Of a DNA stretch of 32,154 bases, positions 2,532 through 30,017 are shown in pieces (position 1 is the first letter of the stretch; each line of letters begins with the position of its first letter). Both the position numbers and the translations under genes were made by a program. Source of the DNA: a virus; the IMG/VR virus record IMGVR_UViG_3300006793_000136, positions 1 through 32,154 of that record. One strand, given 5' to 3'. The notes below the pieces were generated by a model. It saw only the letters and a program-made list of their open reading frames with translations. It ran no database searches and was not told the DNA's origin.

Positions 2532-4103
2532 ATGTCAGACTTAATAGTCAAGAATCTTAATTTTGGGCAACAAGCTCAAAATCAAGTGTTTAAAGGAATT
2601 GATAAACTCACGCAAGCTGTTAGCTCCACTTTAGGGGCTAGTGGCAAGTGTGTTTTACTTGAAGATGATAAAGGTACCCCAGTTATAACTAAAGATGGGG
2701 TTACAGTAGCAAATTCAATAGTTTTATTAGATCCTGTAGAAAATATGGGTGCTACACTTTTAAAAGAAGCTGCAAGAAAAACAGTGAGCGAAGCAGGTGA
2801 TGGTACAACAACAGCAACAGTTTTAGCACACGCAATACTTGAAGAAGCTAAAAGTGCAGATATAAATTCTAGAGAATTAAAAGAAAATATTAATAAAGCT
2901 GTAAAAAAAGTAGTTAAATACTTAGAAAAAATTAGTATCCCTGTTAAAGGGGATATGATTGATCAAATTGCAACTATTTCTACTAATAATGAACCACAAC
3001 TTGGAAAAATTATTGGTGATGCATTCAGAGCAGTTGGTCAAACAGGGGTTGTGATGATGGAACATTCTTCATTACCTGAGACAGAAGTAGAGTTAGTAGA
3101 TGGAGTTCAGTATAATAAAGGTCTTACTAATCCTCATTTTATTACTAATAAAGCAAAAAAGACTGCAGAACTTGAAAAACCCGCAGTACTTTTAATAGAA
3201 TCTCCGATAGATAATATAAGACAAATTCAATCTATCTTAGAACATATTATAAAAAAGAATACACCTTTACTTATCATAGCAGATGTAGAAGCCCCAATAA
3301 TGGCTACTCTTGCAATGAATAAAACAAAAGGTAACATAAAAGTAAATATCATTAATGCTCCAACATTTGGAGTTAATAAAAGAGAAACATTAGATGATCT
3401 AGCTATGCTTACAGGAGCTACTGTCATAAATGAAGATCTAGGAGATGATATGGATATAATACAACCGGAATTTTTAGGGAGTTGTTTAAAGTCCGTTACT
3501 GATGAAAAAGATACTATTCTGCAAGTAGGTGAACCTACAGAAGCAGTTTTAAATGCTATAAAAGCAGTTAAAGAAGAATTAGCTAACAAACCTAATCCTG
3601 CACATCTTATAAGATTAGAAAAAAGATTAGCAAGATTATCAGCTAAAATAGCTATAGTAAAAGTAGGGGCAAATTCAGATATAGAATTAAAAGAAAAATC
3701 TGATAGAATAGAAGATGCAATTTGCGCGACAAAAGCCGCTATAAAAGAAGGTATTGTACCCGGTGGTGGTATAGCTCTACTAAACGCTGGACAAAATATT
3801 AAAACAAATACTGAAGGGGAGAAGATTTTATTAAAAGCAATAGAATCTCCATTTAGAGTTATTTTAGATAATGCTGGGATTGAATGTCCTAGTGATTCAT
3901 TGCCTAAAATAATGGGGAAATTACAAGGTAAAGGTTTAGATGTAATAACAGGTGAACCGGTTAATATGATAGAAGCCGGTATCATTGATCCTTTACTAGT
4001 AACTAAAAGTGCTTTGATAAATGCTGCTTCAGTAGCTGCAACGATATTATCAACAGATTGTGTAATCAATAATTTAAGAATTGATGAAAGCAATAGGAAA
4101 TAA
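2532..4103 (+). CDS. groEL: Phage-encoded GroEL chaperonin (60 kDa class)
   Basis: 523 residues covering all three GroEL domains. Nucleotide-site residues are kept: the TLG turn at 33-35, D55 in ITKDGVTVA, D90 in GDGTTTATVLA, D395 in RIEDAICATKAA, then VPGGGIALL and an IIDP near the end. The phosphate loop reads TLGASG instead of the usual TLGPKG. The apical domain is recognisable (DNIRQIQ..., PLLIIAD) but several hydrophobic residues that bind substrate and GroES in E. coli are replaced by eye alignment. The chain stops at ...NNLRIDESNRK and lacks the C-terminal GGM repeats. The last 20 bases overlap groES, so the order is groEL then groES, the reverse of the usual bacterial operon. Its likely job is folding phage structural proteins with the two GroES-like products encoded here. 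Confidence 0.97.
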   Translation: MSDLIVKNLNFGQQAQNQVFKGIDKLTQAVSSTLGASGKCVLLEDDKGTPVITKDGVTVANSIVLLDPVENMGATLLKEAARKTVSEAGDGTTTATVLAHAILEEAKSADINSRELKENINKAVKKVVKYLEKISIPVKGDMIDQIATISTNNEPQLGKIIGDAFRAVGQTGVVMMEHSSLPETEVELVDGVQYNKGLTNPHFITNKAKKTAELEKPAVLLIESPIDNIRQIQSILEHIIKKNTPLLIIADVEAPIMATLAMNKTKGNIKVNIINAPTFGVNKRETLDDLAMLTGATVINEDLGDDMDIIQPEFLGSCLKSVTDEKDTILQVGEPTEAVLNAIKAVKEELANKPNPAHLIRLEKRLARLSAKIAIVKVGANSDIELKEKSDRIEDAICATKAAIKEGIVPGGGIALLNAGQNIKTNTEGEKILLKAIESPFRVILDNAGIECPSDSLPKIMGKLQGKGLDVITGEPVNMIEAGIIDPLLVTKSALINAASVAATILSTDCVINNLRIDESNRK

Positions 4104-4344
4104 TATTATAATTAAACCTGAGAAAGTAAAAACCGATAAAACAAAAGGGGGATTACTAATTATTGAAAAAGATCGTGAAGATATAAGATACAGAAAAGCT
4201 ATTATAATTTCTGTAAGTGATGATATAAAAGGTTTAAAACAAGATGATGTGATTTATTATGACAGACACGCAGGTCATGGTATTGAATTCAACAAAGATA
4301 AATTTACTCTTATTAAATTACAAGATGTTGTTGTTGTTTTATGA
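4084..4344 (+). CDS. groES: GroES co-chaperonin
   Basis: 86 residues counting from ATG 4084; an in-frame TTG sits just before it but ATG is the better start. It overlaps the end of groEL by 20 bases. The N terminus GNNIIIKPEKV matches the strand HDRVIVKR of bacterial GroES. A mobile loop candidate GGLLI (residues 22-26) corresponds to the GGIVL that contacts GroEL. The second half has KQDDVIYYDRHAGHGIEF and ends DVVVVL, like VGDIVIFNDGYG...DILAIVE. It should form the heptameric lid of the neighbouring GroEL. The acidic/basic stretch EKDREDIRYRK after the loop differs from host GroES. Its TGA overlaps the next ATG (ATGA), suggesting coupled translation. Confidence 0.9.
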   Translation: MKAIGNNIIIKPEKVKTDKTKGGLLIIEKDREDIRYRKAIIISVSDDIKGLKQDDVIYYDRHAGHGIEFNKDKFTLIKLQDVVVVL

Positions 4345-9510: not shown

Positions 9511-9733
9511 TAAAGTTATAAGAAAAATCAGTATTGGATCTGATTATAAAAATGATGCCATGCATTATGCTGTAGGCCAGCAAGTGTATGGTGGTCATAC
9601 TATCTCTCATATTTTAAACGATGAAGAAGAGCAATCTTATAATATATTTATAAAAAAAGATGACGAGGTATTACCGTGGAAAAAATTTAATTCTCAAATG
9701 GCTATATCTGTTGAATATGATTTAGAATATTAA
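9503..9733 (+). CDS. Conserved small phage protein, 76 aa (GTG start)
   Basis: 76 residues starting at GTG 9503, inside the previous gene's last codons. The GTG is preferred because the family-typical opening KVIRKISIGSDYKNDAMHY begins right after it and no ATG precedes that block. The rest (VGQQVYGGHTISHIL, an acidic loop, IFIKKDDEVLPWKKF, MAISVEYDLEY) looks like a small beta-rich domain. I recall similar proteins next to the GroES-like protein and terminase in marine phages. Function unknown. Its TAA shares one base with the next ATG. Confidence 0.7.
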   Translation: MSSKVIRKISIGSDYKNDAMHYAVGQQVYGGHTISHILNDEEEQSYNIFIKKDDEVLPWKKFNSQMAISVEYDLEY

Positions 9734-10323
9734 TGAATAGTTTATATCAATTTATTGTAAAACCTATAGGGGAAAGATATAAAAATAAAATTAATATTAA
9801 TAATAAAGAATTAATCATAAATTCTAGTATATCTAATCATAAATTTATAAATAGAGAAGCAGAAGTTGTGTCTGTTCCACTTGTATATAAAACATCTATA
9901 AATAAAGGAGATAAAGTTATAGTTCATCATAATTTATTTAGAAGATATTATAATATGAAAGGTAAGTCTGTAAATAGTAGTAAATATTTTAAAGATGATT
10001 TATACTTTGCAATTCCTTCTCAAGTTTATATGTATTATAGAAACAATACATGGAATACTCATGAAAATTATTGTTTTGTAAAACCGGTATTAGAAGATGA
10101 AAAAATTATAAAGAATACTGGTATACTAAAATATGGTAATAGTTCACTAGAAGTGCTTAATATCAATCCAGGTGATGTTATTGGATTTAATCCATTAAGA
10201 GAATTTGAATTTGTAATTGATAATGAGCTTTTATATTGTATGGAATCAAATGATATTGTAATTAAATATGAACACAAAGCAAACCAAAAAGAGTATAATC
10301 CAAGCTGGGCAAAAAGCTGTTGA
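9733..10323 (+). CDS. Tandem double GroES-like (co-chaperonin-like) phage protein
   Basis: 196 residues with two GroES-like halves. First half: FIVKPIGERY (7-16) like HDRVIVKR, a loop ELIINSSISNHKFIN where GroES has its mobile loop, then INKGDKVIVHHN like VKVGDIVIFND. Second half: YCFVKPVLEDEK, GILKYG, then NPGDVIGFN...IDNELLYCMESNDIVIKYE. The last stretch follows GroES GDIVIFN...IDNEEVLIMSESDILAIVE nearly position by position. The tail EYNPSWAKSC is one I recall as typical of a conserved marine-phage family annotated as GroES-like. It is probably a gp31-type co-chaperonin for GroEL, possibly specialised for capsid folding. It lies directly before the packaging genes, 5.4 kb from groES, and overlaps TerS by 56 bases. 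Confidence 0.75.
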   Translation: MNSLYQFIVKPIGERYKNKININNKELIINSSISNHKFINREAEVVSVPLVYKTSINKGDKVIVHHNLFRRYYNMKGKSVNSSKYFKDDLYFAIPSQVYMYYRNNTWNTHENYCFVKPVLEDEKIIKNTGILKYGNSSLEVLNINPGDVIGFNPLREFEFVIDNELLYCMESNDIVIKYEHKANQKEYNPSWAKSC

Positions 10324-10540
10324 AGAATTAATTAAGGTTGCTAAGGAAAAAATAGTAGACTCAGAAGATGATGTTTCTGCTGATAGATTAAAAAATGCAG
10401 CAGCAACTAAAAAATTAGCTATTTTCGATGCTTTTGAAATACTCACACGTATAGAAGAAGAAGAGAATATGCTAAAAGAGATTAAAGAAGAAAATCGCGG
10501 AAACAACTTTAAAGGATTCGCAGAAAATAGATCTCGATAA
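10268..10540 (+). CDS. Putative terminase small subunit
   Basis: 90 residues, almost entirely helical and highly charged. Order: basic N terminus (MNTKQTKKSI), helix with AVEELIKVAKEKIVDSE, the block SADRLKNAAATKKLAIFDAFEIL, then an acidic coiled coil (RIEEEENMLKEIKEE). The A.D..KNAAATKKLAIFDAFEIL block is one I recall from proteins directly upstream of TerL in marine phages, and small helical DNA-binding proteins are usual there. Recognition of the packaging site is therefore inferred. It overlaps the GroES-like gene by 56 bases and shares one base with the TerL start. Confidence 0.55.
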   Translation: MNTKQTKKSIIQAGQKAVEELIKVAKEKIVDSEDDVSADRLKNAAATKKLAIFDAFEILTRIEEEENMLKEIKEENRGNNFKGFAENRSR

Positions 10541-12762
10541 TGTACACACAAACTTTATATAAAATTTTACCTAATCATATTAAATCTAATGTAATAAAAA
10601 GAAACAATAGATATAAAAAATGGAAACAAGGTTATGATAAAGAAAATGATATTGTGGTTATCAGTAAAACTGGAGAAATTGGCGAAATATATGAAATCCA
10701 AGGTCTAAAGATTGCATTACCACTCGAAAAAACAGTATATAAAAGAGCAAAAAAGAAAGATGAACAGTATTGGGAGGTTTTTAATTATCCAAAAGAATTA
10801 TCAAAACTTAAAACAGTTTTTGATTGGAATGATAGATCTCTTGATTTTAAAAATAAATGGTATGATTATATTGACGAAGAATTTAAAAGACGTGAAGAAG
10901 GTTTTTGGTTCTACAATAAAGGTAATCCTACTTACATTACTGGTTCTCATTATATGTACCTGCAATGGACCAAGATTGATGTTGGGTCAGCAGAGTTTAG
11001 GGAATCGAACAGATTATTCTTCATTTTCTGGGAGGCCTGTAAGTTGGATACCAGATGTTATGGAATGTGCTACCTTAAAAATAGACGGTCTGGCTTTTCG
11101 TTCATGGCGTCTTCAGAATTGGTACACCAAGCAACCATATCCAGTGATTCACGATACGGAATTTTATCTAAGACTGGAGCCGATGCTAAAAAGATGTTTA
11201 CAGATAAAGTTGTACCGATATCGGTTAACTACCCATTTTTCTTCAAACCGATTCAAGACGGTATGGACAGGCCCAAAACAGAACTTGCCTATAGAGTACC
11301 AGCATCCAAACTTACGAGAAAGAAGTTGGACGAAAACACCAAAGTTGAAGAAATACAAGGATTGGACACAACGATCGACTGGAAGAATACCGGGGACAAC
11401 TCGTACGATGGAGAGAAATTACAACTTCTCGCCCACGATGAATCGGGGAAATGGGAGAGGCCCGACAACATCCTCAACAACTGGAGGGTCACAAAAACCA
11501 CATTAAGATTAGGGAGTAGAATAGTTGGAAAATGTATGATGGGTTCTACTTCAAATGCTTTAGATAAAGGAGGAAATAATTTTAAAAGATTATATGATGC
11601 ATCAGATGTTACAAAAAGAAACCGTAATGGACAGACTAACTCAGGATTATATAGTTTGTTCATACCTATGGAATGGAACTACGAAGGATACCTTAATACT
11701 TATGGAATACCTGTCTTTGAAACTCCGAAAAAAGCAGTACCTGGGATCGATGGATCACAAATTGAAATTGGGGTCATTTCCCATTGGGAAAACGAAGTTG
11801 AAGGATTAAAAGAGGATCAAGATAGTTTAAATGAATTTTATCGTCAATTTCCACGAACTGAAAAACATGCTTTTAGAGATGAAGCTAAGGAATCTTTATT
11901 TAATTTAACAAAAATTTACGAACAAATTGATTATAATGAGGATTTAAGAAACACAAATATTGTTACGCAAGGTAATTTTCAATGGGAAGGTGGGATTAAA
12001 GATACTAGAGTATTATTTGTTCCTAATAACAATGGGAGATTTTTTATATCTTGGGTTCCTCCAATTAATTTACAAAATAGATACTTAGTAAAAAATGGAA
12101 TTAAATATCCTGGTAATAATGATTGTGGGGCTTTTGGTTGTGACCCTTATGATATATCAGGTACAGTAGACGGTAGAGGATCAAAAGGATCTCTTCATGG
12201 TCTTACAAAATTTACAATGGAGGATGTTCCTCCTAATACATTTTTTTTAGAATATATAGCACGACCACAAACTGCAGAAATATTTTTTGAAGAAGTATTA
12301 ATGGCTTTAGTTTTTTACGGAATGCCATTACTTGCAGAAAATAACAAACCTCGATTATTATATTATTTAAAAAGAAGAGGTTACCGCGGGTACTCAATGA
12401 ATAGACCTGATAAAATTTATAATAAATTATCTGTAACAGAAAGAGAAATAGGTGGAATACCTAACTCTAGTGAAGATATAAAACAAGCTCATGCTGCTGC
12501 GATAGAAGATTATATTGAAAATTTTATAGGATATAATGGAGAAAATTATGGAGATATGTATTTCCAAAAAACTCTTGAAGATTGGGCTAAATTCAATATT
12601 AATAATAGAACTTTACACGATGCGTCTATAAGTTCTGGATTAGCAATTATGGCTTGTAATAAAAATAAATATAGACCTACTGCTGAAAGAACAATAACAA
12701 GTGTACCTTTAGGTTTTAAAAAATATAATAATAAAGGAGTAAATTCAAAAATACTAAATTAG
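10540..12762 (+). CDS. terL: Terminase large subunit (packaging ATPase/nuclease)
   Basis: 740 residues, longer than many TerL. The ATPase domain has a deviant Walker A of the terminase type, KNRRSGFS (180-187), Walker B LQLLAHDE (294-301) and a coupling motif MMGSTSN (333-339). The nuclease domain (RNase H fold) shows the first acidic residue in FGCDPYDIS (D535/D538), an acidic PLLAENN (E600) and a C-terminal HDASIS (D694). N-terminal residues 1-135 precede the motor core. The protein pumps DNA into the prohead through the portal encoded immediately downstream (stop TAG directly abuts that ATG) and cuts concatemers. Codons from roughly 10955 to 11510 are markedly more GC-rich than the rest, spanning Walker A to just past Walker B. 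A 264-codon overlapping frame there is a by-product of that composition. Confidence 0.95.
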   Translation: MYTQTLYKILPNHIKSNVIKRNNRYKKWKQGYDKENDIVVISKTGEIGEIYEIQGLKIALPLEKTVYKRAKKKDEQYWEVFNYPKELSKLKTVFDWNDRSLDFKNKWYDYIDEEFKRREEGFWFYNKGNPTYITGSHYMYLQWTKIDVGSAEFRESNRLFFIFWEACKLDTRCYGMCYLKNRRSGFSFMASSELVHQATISSDSRYGILSKTGADAKKMFTDKVVPISVNYPFFFKPIQDGMDRPKTELAYRVPASKLTRKKLDENTKVEEIQGLDTTIDWKNTGDNSYDGEKLQLLAHDESGKWERPDNILNNWRVTKTTLRLGSRIVGKCMMGSTSNALDKGGNNFKRLYDASDVTKRNRNGQTNSGLYSLFIPMEWNYEGYLNTYGIPVFETPKKAVPGIDGSQIEIGVISHWENEVEGLKEDQDSLNEFYRQFPRTEKHAFRDEAKESLFNLTKIYEQIDYNEDLRNTNIVTQGNFQWEGGIKDTRVLFVPNNNGRFFISWVPPINLQNRYLVKNGIKYPGNNDCGAFGCDPYDISGTVDGRGSKGSLHGLTKFTMEDVPPNTFFLEYIARPQTAEIFFEEVLMALVFYGMPLLAENNKPRLLYYLKRRGYRGYSMNRPDKIYNKLSVTEREIGGIPNSSEDIKQAHAAAIEDYIENFIGYNGENYGDMYFQKTLEDWAKFNINNRTLHDASISSGLAIMACNKNKYRPTAERTITSVPLGFKKYNNKGVNSKILN
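10955..11510 (+). other. GC-rich composition island inside terL
   Basis: Within the terL frame, codon choice switches from the AT-rich style of the window to GAC, AAC, ATC, CTC, AGG, GGG and CCC. Hand counts give 30 of 60 G+C at 11401-11460, against 15 of 60 at 12241-12300. The edges are gradual to within about 20 bases. The reading frame is intact throughout, so this is a composition feature and not an inserted gene. Confidence 0.7.
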
Positions 12763-15174
12763 ATGGTTAAGATTAACTATAATAGTGCTTTCCCCGATCA
12801 GGTGGTACCTGAAGAAGAGAAAAAATCTAGAGAGTATGGGTTACAAGTGGCTCAAGCTATTGAATATGAGTGGTTTAGAAATTCTAGTGGTCAAAATAGA
12901 TTTATTAATAATTTTCAAAATTTTAATAGATTAAGATTATATGCTAGAGGAGAACAACCAGTTCAAAAATATAAAGATGAATTAGCTATAAATGGTGATT
13001 TATCTTATCTTAATTTAGATTGGAAACCTGTACCAATTTTATCTAAATTTGTTGATATTGTAGTTAATGGAATGACAGATAAAGGATATGAAATAAAATC
13101 ATACGCACAAGATCCTTTTGCCACTAAACAACGTACTAACTATGCAGCTAACGCTTTAAGAGATATTCAAAATAAAGCAGAAATAGATCAATTAACACAA
13201 ATTACAGGAAGAAGTTATTATTCATCATCAGATCCTGAAAGTTTACCTGAAGATCCTGGAGAATTAGATCTTTACATGCAACTTACATATAAACAAAGCA
13301 TTGAAATAGCTGAAGAAGAAGTTATTAATAATGTATTAGATTATAATAAATATGAAGAAACTAAAAAAAGATTAGCATATGATTTAGCTGTTTTAGGAAT
13401 TGCTTGTGTTAAAACTAATTTTAATTTATCTGAAGGGGTAACTGTAGATTATGTTAATCCCGCAAATATAGTATATTCATATACAGATGATCCTAATTTT
13501 GAAGATATTTATTATGTAGGAGAAATAAAAAATATGTCTCTTTCTGAGGTTAAAAGGCAATTTCCTTATTTAACTGAAAGTGAATTAGAAGAAATTCAAA
13601 AATATCCTGGAAGAAATTCTTACGTAGAAAACACGTGGTGGGGACAAGAGACTAAAGACCAAGTTCAAGTTTTATTTTTTGAATATAAAACATATCAAGA
13701 TCAAGTATTTAAAATAAAACAAACAGAACAAGGTTTAGAAAAAACATTAGAAAAACCCGATACTTTTAATCCTCCACCAAATGATAATTTTGATAGAGTT
13801 TCTAGATCTATTGAAGTTTTATATTCCGGCGCTAAAGTATTAGGTCTTGCTAATAATTTACTTCAATGGGAATTAAGTGAAAATATGACAAGACCTTATG
13901 GTGATACTACTAAAGTAAACATGAATTATGTTATTAGTTCCCCAAGAATGTATCAAGGTAGAATTGAATCTTTAGTTAGTAAAAGTGTAGGTTTTGCTGA
14001 TATGATTCAATTAACGCATTTAAAACTACAACAAGTATTATCAAGAATGGTGCCAGATGGAGTATATCTAGATGTAGATGGACTTGCTGAAGTAGATTTA
14101 GGAAATGGTACTAATTATAATCCCTCTGAAGCGCTTAATATGTATTTTCAAACTGGTAGTATAGTTGGAAGATCTTTAACACAAGATGGGGAATTAAATA
14201 GAGGTAAAGTTCCAGTTCAAGAATTACAGACATCGAATGGAATGTCTAAAATTCAAGCTATGATTCAAACTTATCAGTATTATTTACAAATGATAAGAGA
14301 TGTCACCGGGCTTAACGAAGCAAGAGACGGTAGTATGCCAGCTAAAGATTCCTTAGTAGGATTACAAAAATTAGCTGCTGCTAATTCTAATACTGCAACA
14401 AGACATGTTCTTCAATCGCTTATGTATTTAACAGTAAGGGTGTGTGAAAATATTAGTTTGCGAGTTTCTGATATGCTTCAATTTCCTCTTACTCAACAAA
14501 GTCTAATGACGAGTATTAACACTTTTAACACTCATACTTTAAATGAAATACAAAAGTTAAGTTTACATGATTTTGGAATATTTTTAGAATTAGAACCCGA
14601 AGAGGAAGATAAAACAAATTTAGAACAAAATATACAAATAGCATTACAAGCTGGTAATATTGGATTGGAAGATGCTATAGATTTAAGAGAAATACGAAAT
14701 ATTAAATTAGCTAATCAAAGTTTAAAATCTCGTCAAAAGAAAAAACAAGAATTAGAAAGAGTACAGCAATTAGAAAATATAGAAGCTCAAGCTGCTGCTA
14801 ATGCTGAAGCAGCTGAAAAAGCAGCAGTAGCAGAAGTACAAAAACAACAAGCTTTAGCCGAAACTGAAATACAAATAGAACAAGCTAAATCTCAATTTGA
14901 AATTACTAAATTAGAAAGAGAAGCTGAAATTAAAAAACAGTTAATGGCAGAAGAATTTAATTATGATATGGAGTTAGCCCGACTTCAAGGCCAAGTACAA
15001 CAACAAAAAGAAGGAGCAATAGAAGATCGTAAGGATCAAAGAATTAAATTACAAGGTACCCAACAAAGTGAAATGATAAATCAAAGACAAAATGATTTAT
15101 TACCAAAAGATTTTGAATCTGCAGGTAATGATAATTTAGATGGATTTGGATTAGAACAGTTTGGACCATCTTAA
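12763..15174 (+). CDS. Portal protein
   Basis: 803 residues. Residues 1-100 carry a block I recognise from portals of crAss-like and marine podoviruses: EYGLQVAQAIEYEWF, NRLRLYARGEQ.VQKYKDELAING, LDWKPVPILSKFVDIVVNGM. The middle has the alpha/beta portal core (EEVINNVLDYNKYEETKKRLAYDLAVLGIACVK, then YVNPANIVYSYTDDPNF). A late segment (RDVTGLNEARDGSMPAKDSLVGLQKLAA) fits the crown/clip region. Residues about 662-740 form a long Gln/Glu/Lys coiled coil, and the C terminus is a Gln/Asn-rich tail. It should form the dodecameric ring for DNA entry and tail attachment. The ATG directly follows the TerL stop with no spacer. Confidence 0.93.
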   Translation: MVKINYNSAFPDQVVPEEEKKSREYGLQVAQAIEYEWFRNSSGQNRFINNFQNFNRLRLYARGEQPVQKYKDELAINGDLSYLNLDWKPVPILSKFVDIVVNGMTDKGYEIKSYAQDPFATKQRTNYAANALRDIQNKAEIDQLTQITGRSYYSSSDPESLPEDPGELDLYMQLTYKQSIEIAEEEVINNVLDYNKYEETKKRLAYDLAVLGIACVKTNFNLSEGVTVDYVNPANIVYSYTDDPNFEDIYYVGEIKNMSLSEVKRQFPYLTESELEEIQKYPGRNSYVENTWWGQETKDQVQVLFFEYKTYQDQVFKIKQTEQGLEKTLEKPDTFNPPPNDNFDRVSRSIEVLYSGAKVLGLANNLLQWELSENMTRPYGDTTKVNMNYVISSPRMYQGRIESLVSKSVGFADMIQLTHLKLQQVLSRMVPDGVYLDVDGLAEVDLGNGTNYNPSEALNMYFQTGSIVGRSLTQDGELNRGKVPVQELQTSNGMSKIQAMIQTYQYYLQMIRDVTGLNEARDGSMPAKDSLVGLQKLAAANSNTATRHVLQSLMYLTVRVCENISLRVSDMLQFPLTQQSLMTSINTFNTHTLNEIQKLSLHDFGIFLELEPEEEDKTNLEQNIQIALQAGNIGLEDAIDLREIRNIKLANQSLKSRQKKKQELERVQQLENIEAQAAANAEAAEKAAVAEVQKQQALAETEIQIEQAKSQFEITKLEREAEIKKQLMAEEFNYDMELARLQGQVQQQKEGAIEDRKDQRIKLQGTQQSEMINQRQNDLLPKDFESAGNDNLDGFGLEQFGPS

Positions 15175-16526: not shown

Positions 16527-17978
16527 ATGGGAATTTTAACTCCACAATTTGGCTCAATAGTTCCTGCTCCTAATCAGCAGCTATTAGCCAGTAATTACCT
16601 ATCTTTTACAGATGGTAATAATGATTTTGCTCAGCAATATCTACCAGAAATATATGAACAAGAAGTAGAGAGATATGGAAATAGAACTCTATCTGGTTTC
16701 TTACGTATGGTAGGTGCTGAAATGCCTCTGACTTCAGATCAAGTTGTTTGGTCAGAGCAAAATAGATTACATATAGCATATGATGGCTGTGTTAACGATC
16801 AAGCTAATCCATCTATTATTACAACACCGGCTGCTACAGCTCCTGGTGTTACAAGAAATGTAGTATCTCCAGGTCAAACCATTGTAGTTTTAGATGATAA
16901 TGGCAACGAAGCAAAGTGCGTTGTAACAGCTTCTAATACAGCTACTGGTGCTATAACTGTTGCTCCTTATTTAAGCACAGATTTAAGTGGTTTAGGTACT
17001 TCAGTAAAAATATTCGTTTATGGTTCAGAATTTGTTAAAGGCGCATCCACATCTAATGCAGGTGCTGGAGCTTTAGCTTTAAATAATACTGTACAACCAC
17101 AAATTACTATTACTCCAGCTTTTCAACAATATAATAACTCACCAGTTATTATCAGAAATGTTTATACAATAAACGGATCAGATATGGCTCAAATAGGTTG
17201 GGTTGAAGTTGCTACAGAAGATGGAACTACTGGTTATCTATGGTACTTAAAAGCAGAATCTGAAACTAGATTACGATTTGAAGATTACCTAGAAATGGTA
17301 TGTGTTGAAGGTGAGATCGCTGTGGCGGCTGCTGGAAATAATGCTGCTGCTTCAGGATTTAAAGGTACTGAAGGTCTTTTCGCCGCTATCTCATCAAGAG
17401 GTAACGTAGAAGTTGGATTTGCTGGTGCAGCTGGTATAGATGACTTTGATGAAATACTTAAAAACTTAGATACTCAAGGTGCTATTGAAGAAAATATGCT
17501 GTTCTTACAAAGATCAACTGCATTAGAATTTGATAATATGCTTGCTAATGTATCTTATGGTGCTAACGGTGGTACAGCTTATGGATTATTTGAAAACTCA
17601 GAAGAAATGGCTTTAAATCTTGGATTTAGTGGTTTCAGAAGAGGTTCTTATGACTTCTATAAAACTGACTGGAAATACTTAAATGATGCTTCTACAAGAG
17701 GAGCAATTGCAGGTACTCAATCAATCGAAGGTGTTTTAATACCAGCAGGTACTTCAACAGTTTACGATCAAATTTTAGGTACTAATATAAGAAGACCATT
17801 CTTACACGTGCGTTATAGAGCTTCTCAAACAGAAGACAGACGTATGAAGTCTTGGTTAACTGGATCAGCTGGAGGTGCTTACACTTCTAATCTTGATGCA
17901 ATGGAAGTAAACTTCCTTTCAGAAAGATGTCTTGTAACTCAAGCTGCTAATAACTTTGTATTATTCAAAGGTATTTAA
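16527..17978 (+). CDS. Major capsid protein (HK97-fold type inferred)
   Basis: 483 residues. Family blocks include QQYLPEIYEQEVERYGNRTL and GFLRMVGAEMPLTSDQVVWSEQ near the N terminus, GTEGLFAAISSRGNVEVG in the middle, and RRGSYDFYKTDWKYLNDASTRG, ASQTEDRRMKSW and NFVLFKGI at the end. These match crAss-like and marine podovirus capsid proteins as I remember them. Residues about 100-170 look like an inserted beta domain. Gly/Ala/Val-rich composition and an A-rich, SD-less leader (AATTAATAAATAAATT) fit a very abundant virion protein. A clear intrinsic terminator follows 15 bases after the stop. Tryptic peptides of this product should dominate virion proteomics. Confidence 0.93.
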   Translation: MGILTPQFGSIVPAPNQQLLASNYLSFTDGNNDFAQQYLPEIYEQEVERYGNRTLSGFLRMVGAEMPLTSDQVVWSEQNRLHIAYDGCVNDQANPSIITTPAATAPGVTRNVVSPGQTIVVLDDNGNEAKCVVTASNTATGAITVAPYLSTDLSGLGTSVKIFVYGSEFVKGASTSNAGAGALALNNTVQPQITITPAFQQYNNSPVIIRNVYTINGSDMAQIGWVEVATEDGTTGYLWYLKAESETRLRFEDYLEMVCVEGEIAVAAAGNNAAASGFKGTEGLFAAISSRGNVEVGFAGAAGIDDFDEILKNLDTQGAIEENMLFLQRSTALEFDNMLANVSYGANGGTAYGLFENSEEMALNLGFSGFRRGSYDFYKTDWKYLNDASTRGAIAGTQSIEGVLIPAGTSTVYDQILGTNIRRPFLHVRYRASQTEDRRMKSWLTGSAGGAYTSNLDAMEVNFLSERCLVTQAANNFVLFKGI

Positions 17979-28997: not shown

Positions 28998-30017
28998 ATG
29001 ACTGTATGGGCAGCCGGCATTTCAGCCGCAGTATCTATTGGAACTTCTATTTGGCAATCTAGCAAAGAAAAAAAGAAAGCAAGAAAGGCAAGAGATAAAG
29101 CTAGAGAGTTAGAGCGTAAAATAGCATTTGAAGAGAAGAATAGAACAACAATTATAAATCCTTTTGAAGGTATAACTGATTTATCGGCTATGGCTAGTAA
29201 TCTTAGTGGCATGGCCTCTGCACCTAAAATGAATTTAGCTGTAGCTACTAAAGCTTCTGAAATGCAAGCGGCTGAAGCTGATATAGCTTTAGCAAATACT
29301 TTAGATATGATGCAAGCTAGTGGAACATCTGCAGGTGGCGCAACAGCTTTAGCTCAAATGGCCTTAAAAAGCAAACAAGGAATTAGTGCTAATATTGAAC
29401 AGCAAGAAGCTAGGAATCAAGAAATTATGGAAAAATCTAGAATTGATGGAGAGTTAAGAATTCAAGATATTCAAATGAGTGAAGCTAAAAGAATGCAAGA
29501 TGTTCAAATGAGTCAAGCAGAAAAAGTACAAAAAGCAGAAGCTCAAGGAAAAGAGTTTATGTATCGAGAAGAAGATAGTAGAGATATGCAAAAACTTAAT
29601 AGATTAGGTGCTCAATTAACAGGACAACAACAAGCGCAAACGGCACATAGTCAAAACGCTACAGCAGCTATAACGAGTGGTATATCTGCAGTAGGACAAA
29701 TTGGGGCTAGTGTAGTTGGTAGTGGGGCTATGACAAATATGACAGCGAAACCATCGTCAACTCCATACCAGTTTGATCTTTCAAAGGTTCAAATTACTTC
29801 TGATCGTAGACTTAAAACATCTATAAAATTAATAGGTTTATCTCCATCTGGTTTAAAAATATATAGTTTTGAGTATAAAGATATTTATTTTGGTAAAGGT
29901 ATATTTCAAGGTGTTATGTCTGATGAAATTCCATCTTTTGCAGTAACAAAAGGTAATGATGGGTTTGATCGCGTTGATTATAGCAAGATAGACGTAGAAT
30001 TTAAAAATATAAAATAA
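28998..30017 (+). CDS. Ejection-type virion protein with C-terminal S74-like chaperone domain
   Basis: 339 residues. A hydrophobic N-terminal helix (WAAGISAAVSIGTSIW) precedes basic and acidic helices and Ala/Gln/Met-rich repeats (about 75-200, with QDIQMSEAKRMQDVQMSQAEK), then a Gly/Ala stretch. The last 72 residues begin ITSDRRLKTSIKLIG and continue SGLKIYSFEYKDIYF, GKGIFQGVMSDEIPS and GFDRVDYSKIDVEFK. This resembles the intramolecular chaperone/Peptidase_S74 domain, whose catalytic Ser-Lys dyad would be S268 and K273. In that family the domain self-cleaves just before the Ser. The N-terminal part looks like an internal virion (ejection) protein; no fibre repeats are present. Self-cleavage is inferred. 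Confidence 0.65.
   Translation: MTVWAAGISAAVSIGTSIWQSSKEKKKARKARDKARELERKIAFEEKNRTTIINPFEGITDLSAMASNLSGMASAPKMNLAVATKASEMQAAEADIALANTLDMMQASGTSAGGATALAQMALKSKQGISANIEQQEARNQEIMEKSRIDGELRIQDIQMSEAKRMQDVQMSQAEKVQKAEAQGKEFMYREEDSRDMQKLNRLGAQLTGQQQAQTAHSQNATAAITSGISAVGQIGASVVGSGAMTNMTAKPSSTPYQFDLSKVQITSDRRLKTSIKLIGLSPSGLKIYSFEYKDIYFGKGIFQGVMSDEIPSFAVTKGNDGFDRVDYSKIDVEFKNIK

Follow-up and report, generated by a model that had tools for sequence, protein, structure and literature searches.

A phage protein with two predicted GroES domains encoded ahead of the terminase gene, in a genome with its own GroEL and GroES

Chaperonin and head genes of the window

The window is a 32,154-nucleotide stretch of DNA (positions 1 to 32,154 of IMG/VR record IMGVR_UViG_3300006793_000136) from a virus of flavobacteria-like marine bacteria. 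As the preliminary description held, it encodes a GroEL, a single-domain GroES and a separate protein with two GroES-like halves, which we call the tandem protein; these genes, the head genes and all parts of the tandem protein discussed below are on the plus strand. The phage GroEL (2532..4103, 523 aa) keeps its ATPase motifs, with GDGTTT and the D398 equivalent in place, and lacks the GGM-rich C-terminal tail. In an alignment read by eye, several lid-binding apical positions of E. coli GroEL look changed in the phage protein. The 5' part of groES (4087..4344) overlaps the 3' end of groEL, and its product scores 39.5 bits against Pfam Cpn10 (cut-off 21.1), keeps the mobile loop KGGLLII and has no roof loop.

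The tandem gene runs from an ATG at 9733 to a stop at 10323 and encodes 196 aa. It lies between a 76-aa open reading frame and a 90-aa one (10268..10540), followed by the genes for the terminase large subunit (terL, 10540..12762; phrog_6681, 7e-162) and the portal protein (12763..15174; phrog_6547, 4e-137). The gene had been placed right before both terminase subunits; its position ahead of terL holds, but the 90-aa frame matches a TerS family in PHROG at E 0.07 and is not accepted as TerS. Phages elemo, phi38:1 and Panino lack this small frame, and their tandem gene adjoins terL directly. Wherever a locus offers enough sequence, terL lies downstream of the tandem gene on the same strand (226/226 loci). 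A virion structural protein further along (16527..17978; phrog_13704, 3e-88) is, by position and size, a candidate for the major capsid protein. Another virion structural protein (28998-30017; phrog_6121), for which Pfam gave no match, ends in SDRRLKTSIKLIG..., which is reminiscent of the intramolecular chaperone S74 found in tail spikes.

The tandem gene belongs to a large and constrained family. Its relatives number 159 distinct proteins among the loci gathered, and each of two scans found the family in more than 500 IMG/VR stretches. Against relatives 85-88% identical, synonymous changes far outnumber amino-acid changes (dN/dS about 0.16-0.29), indicating purifying selection. The protein matches PHROG 13932 over its whole length (profile E 7e-21, in two stretches), each half pairing with its own part of the profile, and 51/51 relatives match the same family. 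A match to PF04451 (NCLDV capsid) at E 0.013, below the cut-off and in one member only, and matches to Mediator Med6 among PDB sequences at E 0.2 were set aside as chance.

Two GroES-type domains with unequal loops

Predicted models place a Cpn10/GroES beta-barrel fold in both halves of the tandem protein, so that the two-GroES-domain protein first described at this locus is confirmed; the evidence differs between the halves. For the N-terminal half (residues 1-105; 9733..10047), AlphaFold2 modelling of residues 1-106 alone with 50 relatives gave a pLDDT of 84. When this model was compared with the PDB by Foldseek, ranks 1-19 were all Cpn10, GroES or gp31 chains (probabilities 0.80-1.00), with the T4 gp31 structure 1g31 at rank 3, at modest E-values of 0.011 and up. 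The next PDB matches after these 19 are medium-chain reductases, which carry a GroES-like domain. When the N-half is aligned pairwise to E. coli GroES, 344/2000 shuffles reach its score, which is not significant, and comparison with a GroES profile is borderline (22.42 against a null maximum of 22.35; 0/300 column shuffles reach the score). Because the pairwise comparison is not significant, we assign the N-half to GroES mainly by its predicted structure.

The C-terminal half (residues 106-182; 10048..10278) is a GroES domain on sequence grounds. Aligned by hhalign to GroES, its profile scores 35.5 against a shuffle maximum of 18.9 (0/300 column shuffles). Its motif GDVIGFN..IDNE..M.S.DI..E had been said to follow GroES nearly residue by residue; the likeness to the C-terminal segment of E. 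coli GroES is beyond chance, with a pairwise score reached by 3/2000 shuffles, but at 12/34 identical aligned positions the wording was generous. For the window's own tandem protein, a search with Pfam PF00166 (Cpn10) returned nothing above the gathering score and no Cpn10 match at all. Because the C-half of phi38:1 passes the Pfam cut-off (25.5 vs 21.1) and 19/51 relatives match Pfam Cpn10 at E<=1 (best 2.9e-4), the C-half belongs to the Cpn10/GroES family by descent. The C-half taken alone was judged by profile, and its barrel was modelled within the full-length AlphaFold2 model (196 aa; pLDDT 83.4, pTM 0.77). The profiles of the N-half and C-half match each other weakly, with a score reached by 4/300 shuffles, too weakly for an internal duplication to be demonstrable by sequence.

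The halves differ most in the mobile loop. In the N-domain this loop spans residues 17-40 (9781..9852) and is modelled at low confidence, as for a flexible loop (pLDDT 70 for residues 21-30 and 56 for residues 31-40 in the full-length model). It carries a hydrophobic triad, L27-I28-I29 (9811-9819), that aligns with GGIVL in GroES and with GGLLII in the single GroES that the phage encodes, and positions 27, 28 and 29 are hydrophobic in 51/51, 51/51 and 48/51 relatives (counts by alignment column; a regular-expression tally was left out as too loose). At the corresponding place the C-half of the window protein has 11 residues, the shortest segment measured, against about 23 for the mobile-loop segment of E. 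coli GroES; most relatives have 16-18, and phi38:1 and the gathered locus L297 have 26-27.

Because the C-halves of phi38:1 (NGLRVIEEE), L297 (GSIIVPNSG) and phi18:3 (SLIYIPEDN) keep a loop-like segment, a second loop was probably present in the ancestor and lost in the window's clade, apparently stepwise across the family. In the window's lineage, then, as judged from the alignments, the two halves are not equivalent. A hydrophobic mobile loop that could reach GroEL is kept in the N-half and is gone from the C-half.

Three other features complete the protein. No roof loop was found by alignment in the N-half, and likewise none in the C-half, so both lids of the window phage are roofless, like T4 gp31. 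An insert in the N-domain (residues 66-90, 9928..10002; with the whole motif, 65-90, 9925..10002) begins in a near-invariant HHNxF and has no counterpart in GroES or in the C-half. Few parts of the protein are as well conserved: H65, H66, N67, F69 and G77 are invariant in 51 relatives, and phi18:3 departs from the motif with IDVNAL. The C-terminal tail NQKEYNPSWAKSC (10279..10320) is conserved, according to the alignments, in the window's clade only.

Whole-chain architecture and distribution

The best PDB match of the full-length model, and its sole match at E<0.001, is 7ekq_R, which it matches over both halves (208 columns, TM 0.55); single GroES chains reach TM 0.22-0.31, about half of this value. 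7ekq_R belongs to the Chlamydomonas ClpP complex and has 194 aa; according to a paper that cites the work on this complex, it includes CPN11, CPN20 and CPN23 (PMC8889267). From its chain length and that description, 7ekq_R is probably a tandem co-chaperonin (Cpn20/23). Because both domains superpose together on 7ekq_R, they are predicted to lie side by side as in Cpn20, that is, as two Cpn10 domains head to tail and adjacent like successive subunits of a GroES ring. Of the named viral models, the 'Chaperonin cpn10' of phi18:3 matches best (TM 0.73).

The preliminary description likened the protein to T4 gp31. A lid remains the best reading; in architecture, however, the protein comes closer to chloroplast Cpn20 than to gp31, and Cpn20 is its nearest parallel. 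The Cpn20 proteins of chloroplasts and apicoplasts (Chlamydomonas CPN20/CPN23, At-Cpn20, Pf-Cpn20) likewise consist of a single chain in which a second Cpn10 domain follows the first, head to tail, the modelled whole-chain fold of the tandem protein is like theirs, and in plants and algae Cpn20 occurs with a single-domain Cpn10, as the tandem protein does in phages. Pf-Cpn20 has mobile loops and a roof in both halves (PMC3542282), whereas the window's tandem protein has no roof and no C-half loop. We found no specific sequence kinship between the tandem protein and Cpn20, and the phage protein is likely a fusion independent of the plastid one, at a similarity too low for a tree to be expected to resolve. 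T4 gp31, the lid on which the capsid protein gp23 depends, has no roof loop either (PMC6318259) and shares with the tandem protein its GroES fold and its phage origin, but is a single-domain homo-heptamer and not a chain of two domains. Canonical GroES, including the window's own, shares the barrel fold, the mobile loop and the GD..IF motif; unlike the tandem protein, it is a single domain, and its gene is a separate one that adjoins groEL.

Public records already contain this gene family, and also the trio of GroEL, GroES and tandem protein. By tblastn, 77 public phage records carry the tandem gene (68 elemo Flavobacterium phages, 7 Cellulophaga phages, Maribacter phage Panino and MW202828), and further carriers are phi18:3, phi13:2, phi19:3 and phi46:3 (Pachyviridae). 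The protein has been annotated as co-chaperonin GroES or cpn10 in several of these phages (phi38:1, phi18:3, Calle, elemo), and named members of PHROG 13932 are phi38:1 gp089, phi18:3 gp096, elemo gp30, Calle and Panino. These 'chaperonin cpn10' phages share with the window the family, the position before terL and the two Cpn10 domains; the window's clade is uncultured, and its tandem protein is 28-38% identical to those of the named phages that tblastn found. The Pervagoviridae have eight core genes, among them a 'chaperonin cpn10' (PMC8776804); this core gene is likely the tandem gene and not its single-domain counterpart. A 2017 paper reported that marine phages like phi38:1 encode GroEL homologues (PMC5332604). 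In the papers searched we found no account of a tandem co-chaperonin in phages, and its likeness to Cpn20, the unequal loops and the invariable company of a single Cpn10 appear to be undescribed there.

For a census we took 30 distinct tandem-carrying records of at least 46 kb. A separate single-domain Cpn10 is present in 30/30 and GroEL in 25/30, so that the constant companion of the tandem gene is the single Cpn10 and not GroEL. Having all three genes in one phage, which had been thought unusual, is thus the usual state in this lineage, with 25/30 long genomes carrying the trio; among public phages it is found in elemo, phi38:1, Calle and MW202828. The five records that lack GroEL and keep both Cpn10 types are phi18:3, phi13:2, phi19:3, phi46:3 and the record of L297. 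Shorter IMG/VR fragments (18-42 kb contigs) were not counted as absences: neither groEL nor a single groES was found in G034, G039 and G043, and the 17.8-kb G028 carries the tandem gene alone. Phage immuto has GroEL and GroES without the tandem protein, and Gundel, with a related terminase, has neither Cpn10 nor tandem protein.

A cellular origin of the tandem gene was considered and rejected. Of 22 loci from genome collections, 19 have a TerL match downstream and in the other 3 the contig ends within about 260 bases of the gene, so that these loci look like phage contigs binned into metagenome-assembled genomes. Separately, a phage head module with tandem Cpn10 and terL lies at about 873.6-874.2 kb of CP070801.1, a 1.05-Mb contig titled 'Candidatus Aenigmatarchaeota archaeon' chromosome. 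GC content in the stretch fetched from this contig changes from 0.34-0.36 to about 0.44, and the module is there either through an error of joining or binning in the assembly or as a provirus that one would not expect.

A possible mixed lid and its alternatives

The chaperonin reading of the tandem protein, as part of a lid, is probably right. The form of it that we prefer, and hold tentatively as quite possible, is that the tandem protein joins the phage's single GroES in a mixed seven-domain lid on GroEL that encloses head proteins; we infer the mixed ring, its stoichiometry, its binding to GroEL and its head-protein substrate. Plants and algae build seven-domain lids from Cpn20 together with Cpn10 (PMC5780408). 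GroES needs four or more functional subunits out of seven to bind GroEL, and Arabidopsis Cpn10(1) is active only when it is hetero-oligomerised with Cpn20 (PMC4242682). By this arithmetic, three tandem chains and one single GroES, for example, would make seven domains with four loops. A ring built of tandem protein alone would have six domains with three loops or eight domains with four, so that the single GroES would be required for the reported minimum of four loops. Such a three-plus-one ring would explain the constant pairing of the tandem gene with Cpn10.

The mixed lid would cap the phage GroEL or, in relatives without one, the host GroEL, and proteins of the head module, such as capsid or portal protein, might fold inside the capped cage. 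Because the gene precedes terL and the portal gene, and by analogy with gp31 and gp23, its position suggests head proteins as clients. Neither phage lid has a roof, which would fit a larger or open cage. Tight co-regulation of the two lid genes is not suggested, because they lie 5.4 kb apart in the window and groEL-groES is on the strand opposite to the tandem gene in elemo; their co-occurrence may also reflect shared lineage and not a shared complex.

Alternatively, the tandem protein could be a self-sufficient lid of the gp31 kind, independent of the single GroES, in which seven tandem chains place their N-domains on GroEL, while their C-domains form a second, outer layer or raise the dome to make room for a large capsid protein. 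The presence of one good mobile loop in each chain, roof loops absent as in gp31, the gene's place within the head module, and a groES encoded with groEL elsewhere that could serve other clients would all agree with this. We consider it unlikely, however: superposition of the whole chain on 7ekq_R implies domains side by side and not stacked, the loop-like segment in both halves of phi38:1, L297 and phi18:3 fits a two-domain ring, and a single Cpn10 in every census genome, even where groEL is missing, would be left unexplained.

The fixed position before terL raises another alternative, in which the GroES fold now serves head assembly or packaging, perhaps as a partner of portal or terminase, and is no longer a chaperonin lid. 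Loss of the C-half loop and the HHNxF insert without GroES counterpart are compatible with such a role. Yet the hydrophobic triad of the N-domain is kept in essentially all relatives, the tandem gene is always accompanied by Cpn10, and the phi38:1 tandem protein is not marked structural while neighbouring proteins are. Further, the terminase does not require the tandem protein, since Gundel has a related terminase without it, and we judge this role to be improbable. That the protein regulates another ring complex, such as host ClpP, is very hard to credit: its best structural match is a co-chaperonin chain on the chloroplast ClpP core, but this match more likely arises because no tandem Cpn10 chains other than these turned up among the PDB matches, and the constant companion of the gene is a Cpn10.

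If the mixed lid is right, a bolder and rather doubtful extension of it would be that Bacteroidota phages evolved a ring of tandem and single subunits independently of chloroplasts, in which the second domain gave up GroEL binding, three tandem chains and one single GroES supply exactly four loops, and the asymmetric, roofless lid is dedicated to head proteins. Chaperonin lids are sevenfold, and the puzzle of how Cpn20, with its even number of domains, can be accommodated in such a ring has so far been studied in plastids and apicoplasts. The phage family would offer a second, genetically simple system for mixed rings and for the number of loops needed, and would reveal to what extent phages, beyond the case of T4 gp31, adapt folding cages to their head proteins. 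In phi38:1, GroEL is listed as methylated in free-virion samples alongside the major capsid protein (PMC13288928, Table 3); this table suggests that the phage GroEL either reaches high levels late in infection or accompanies the particles.
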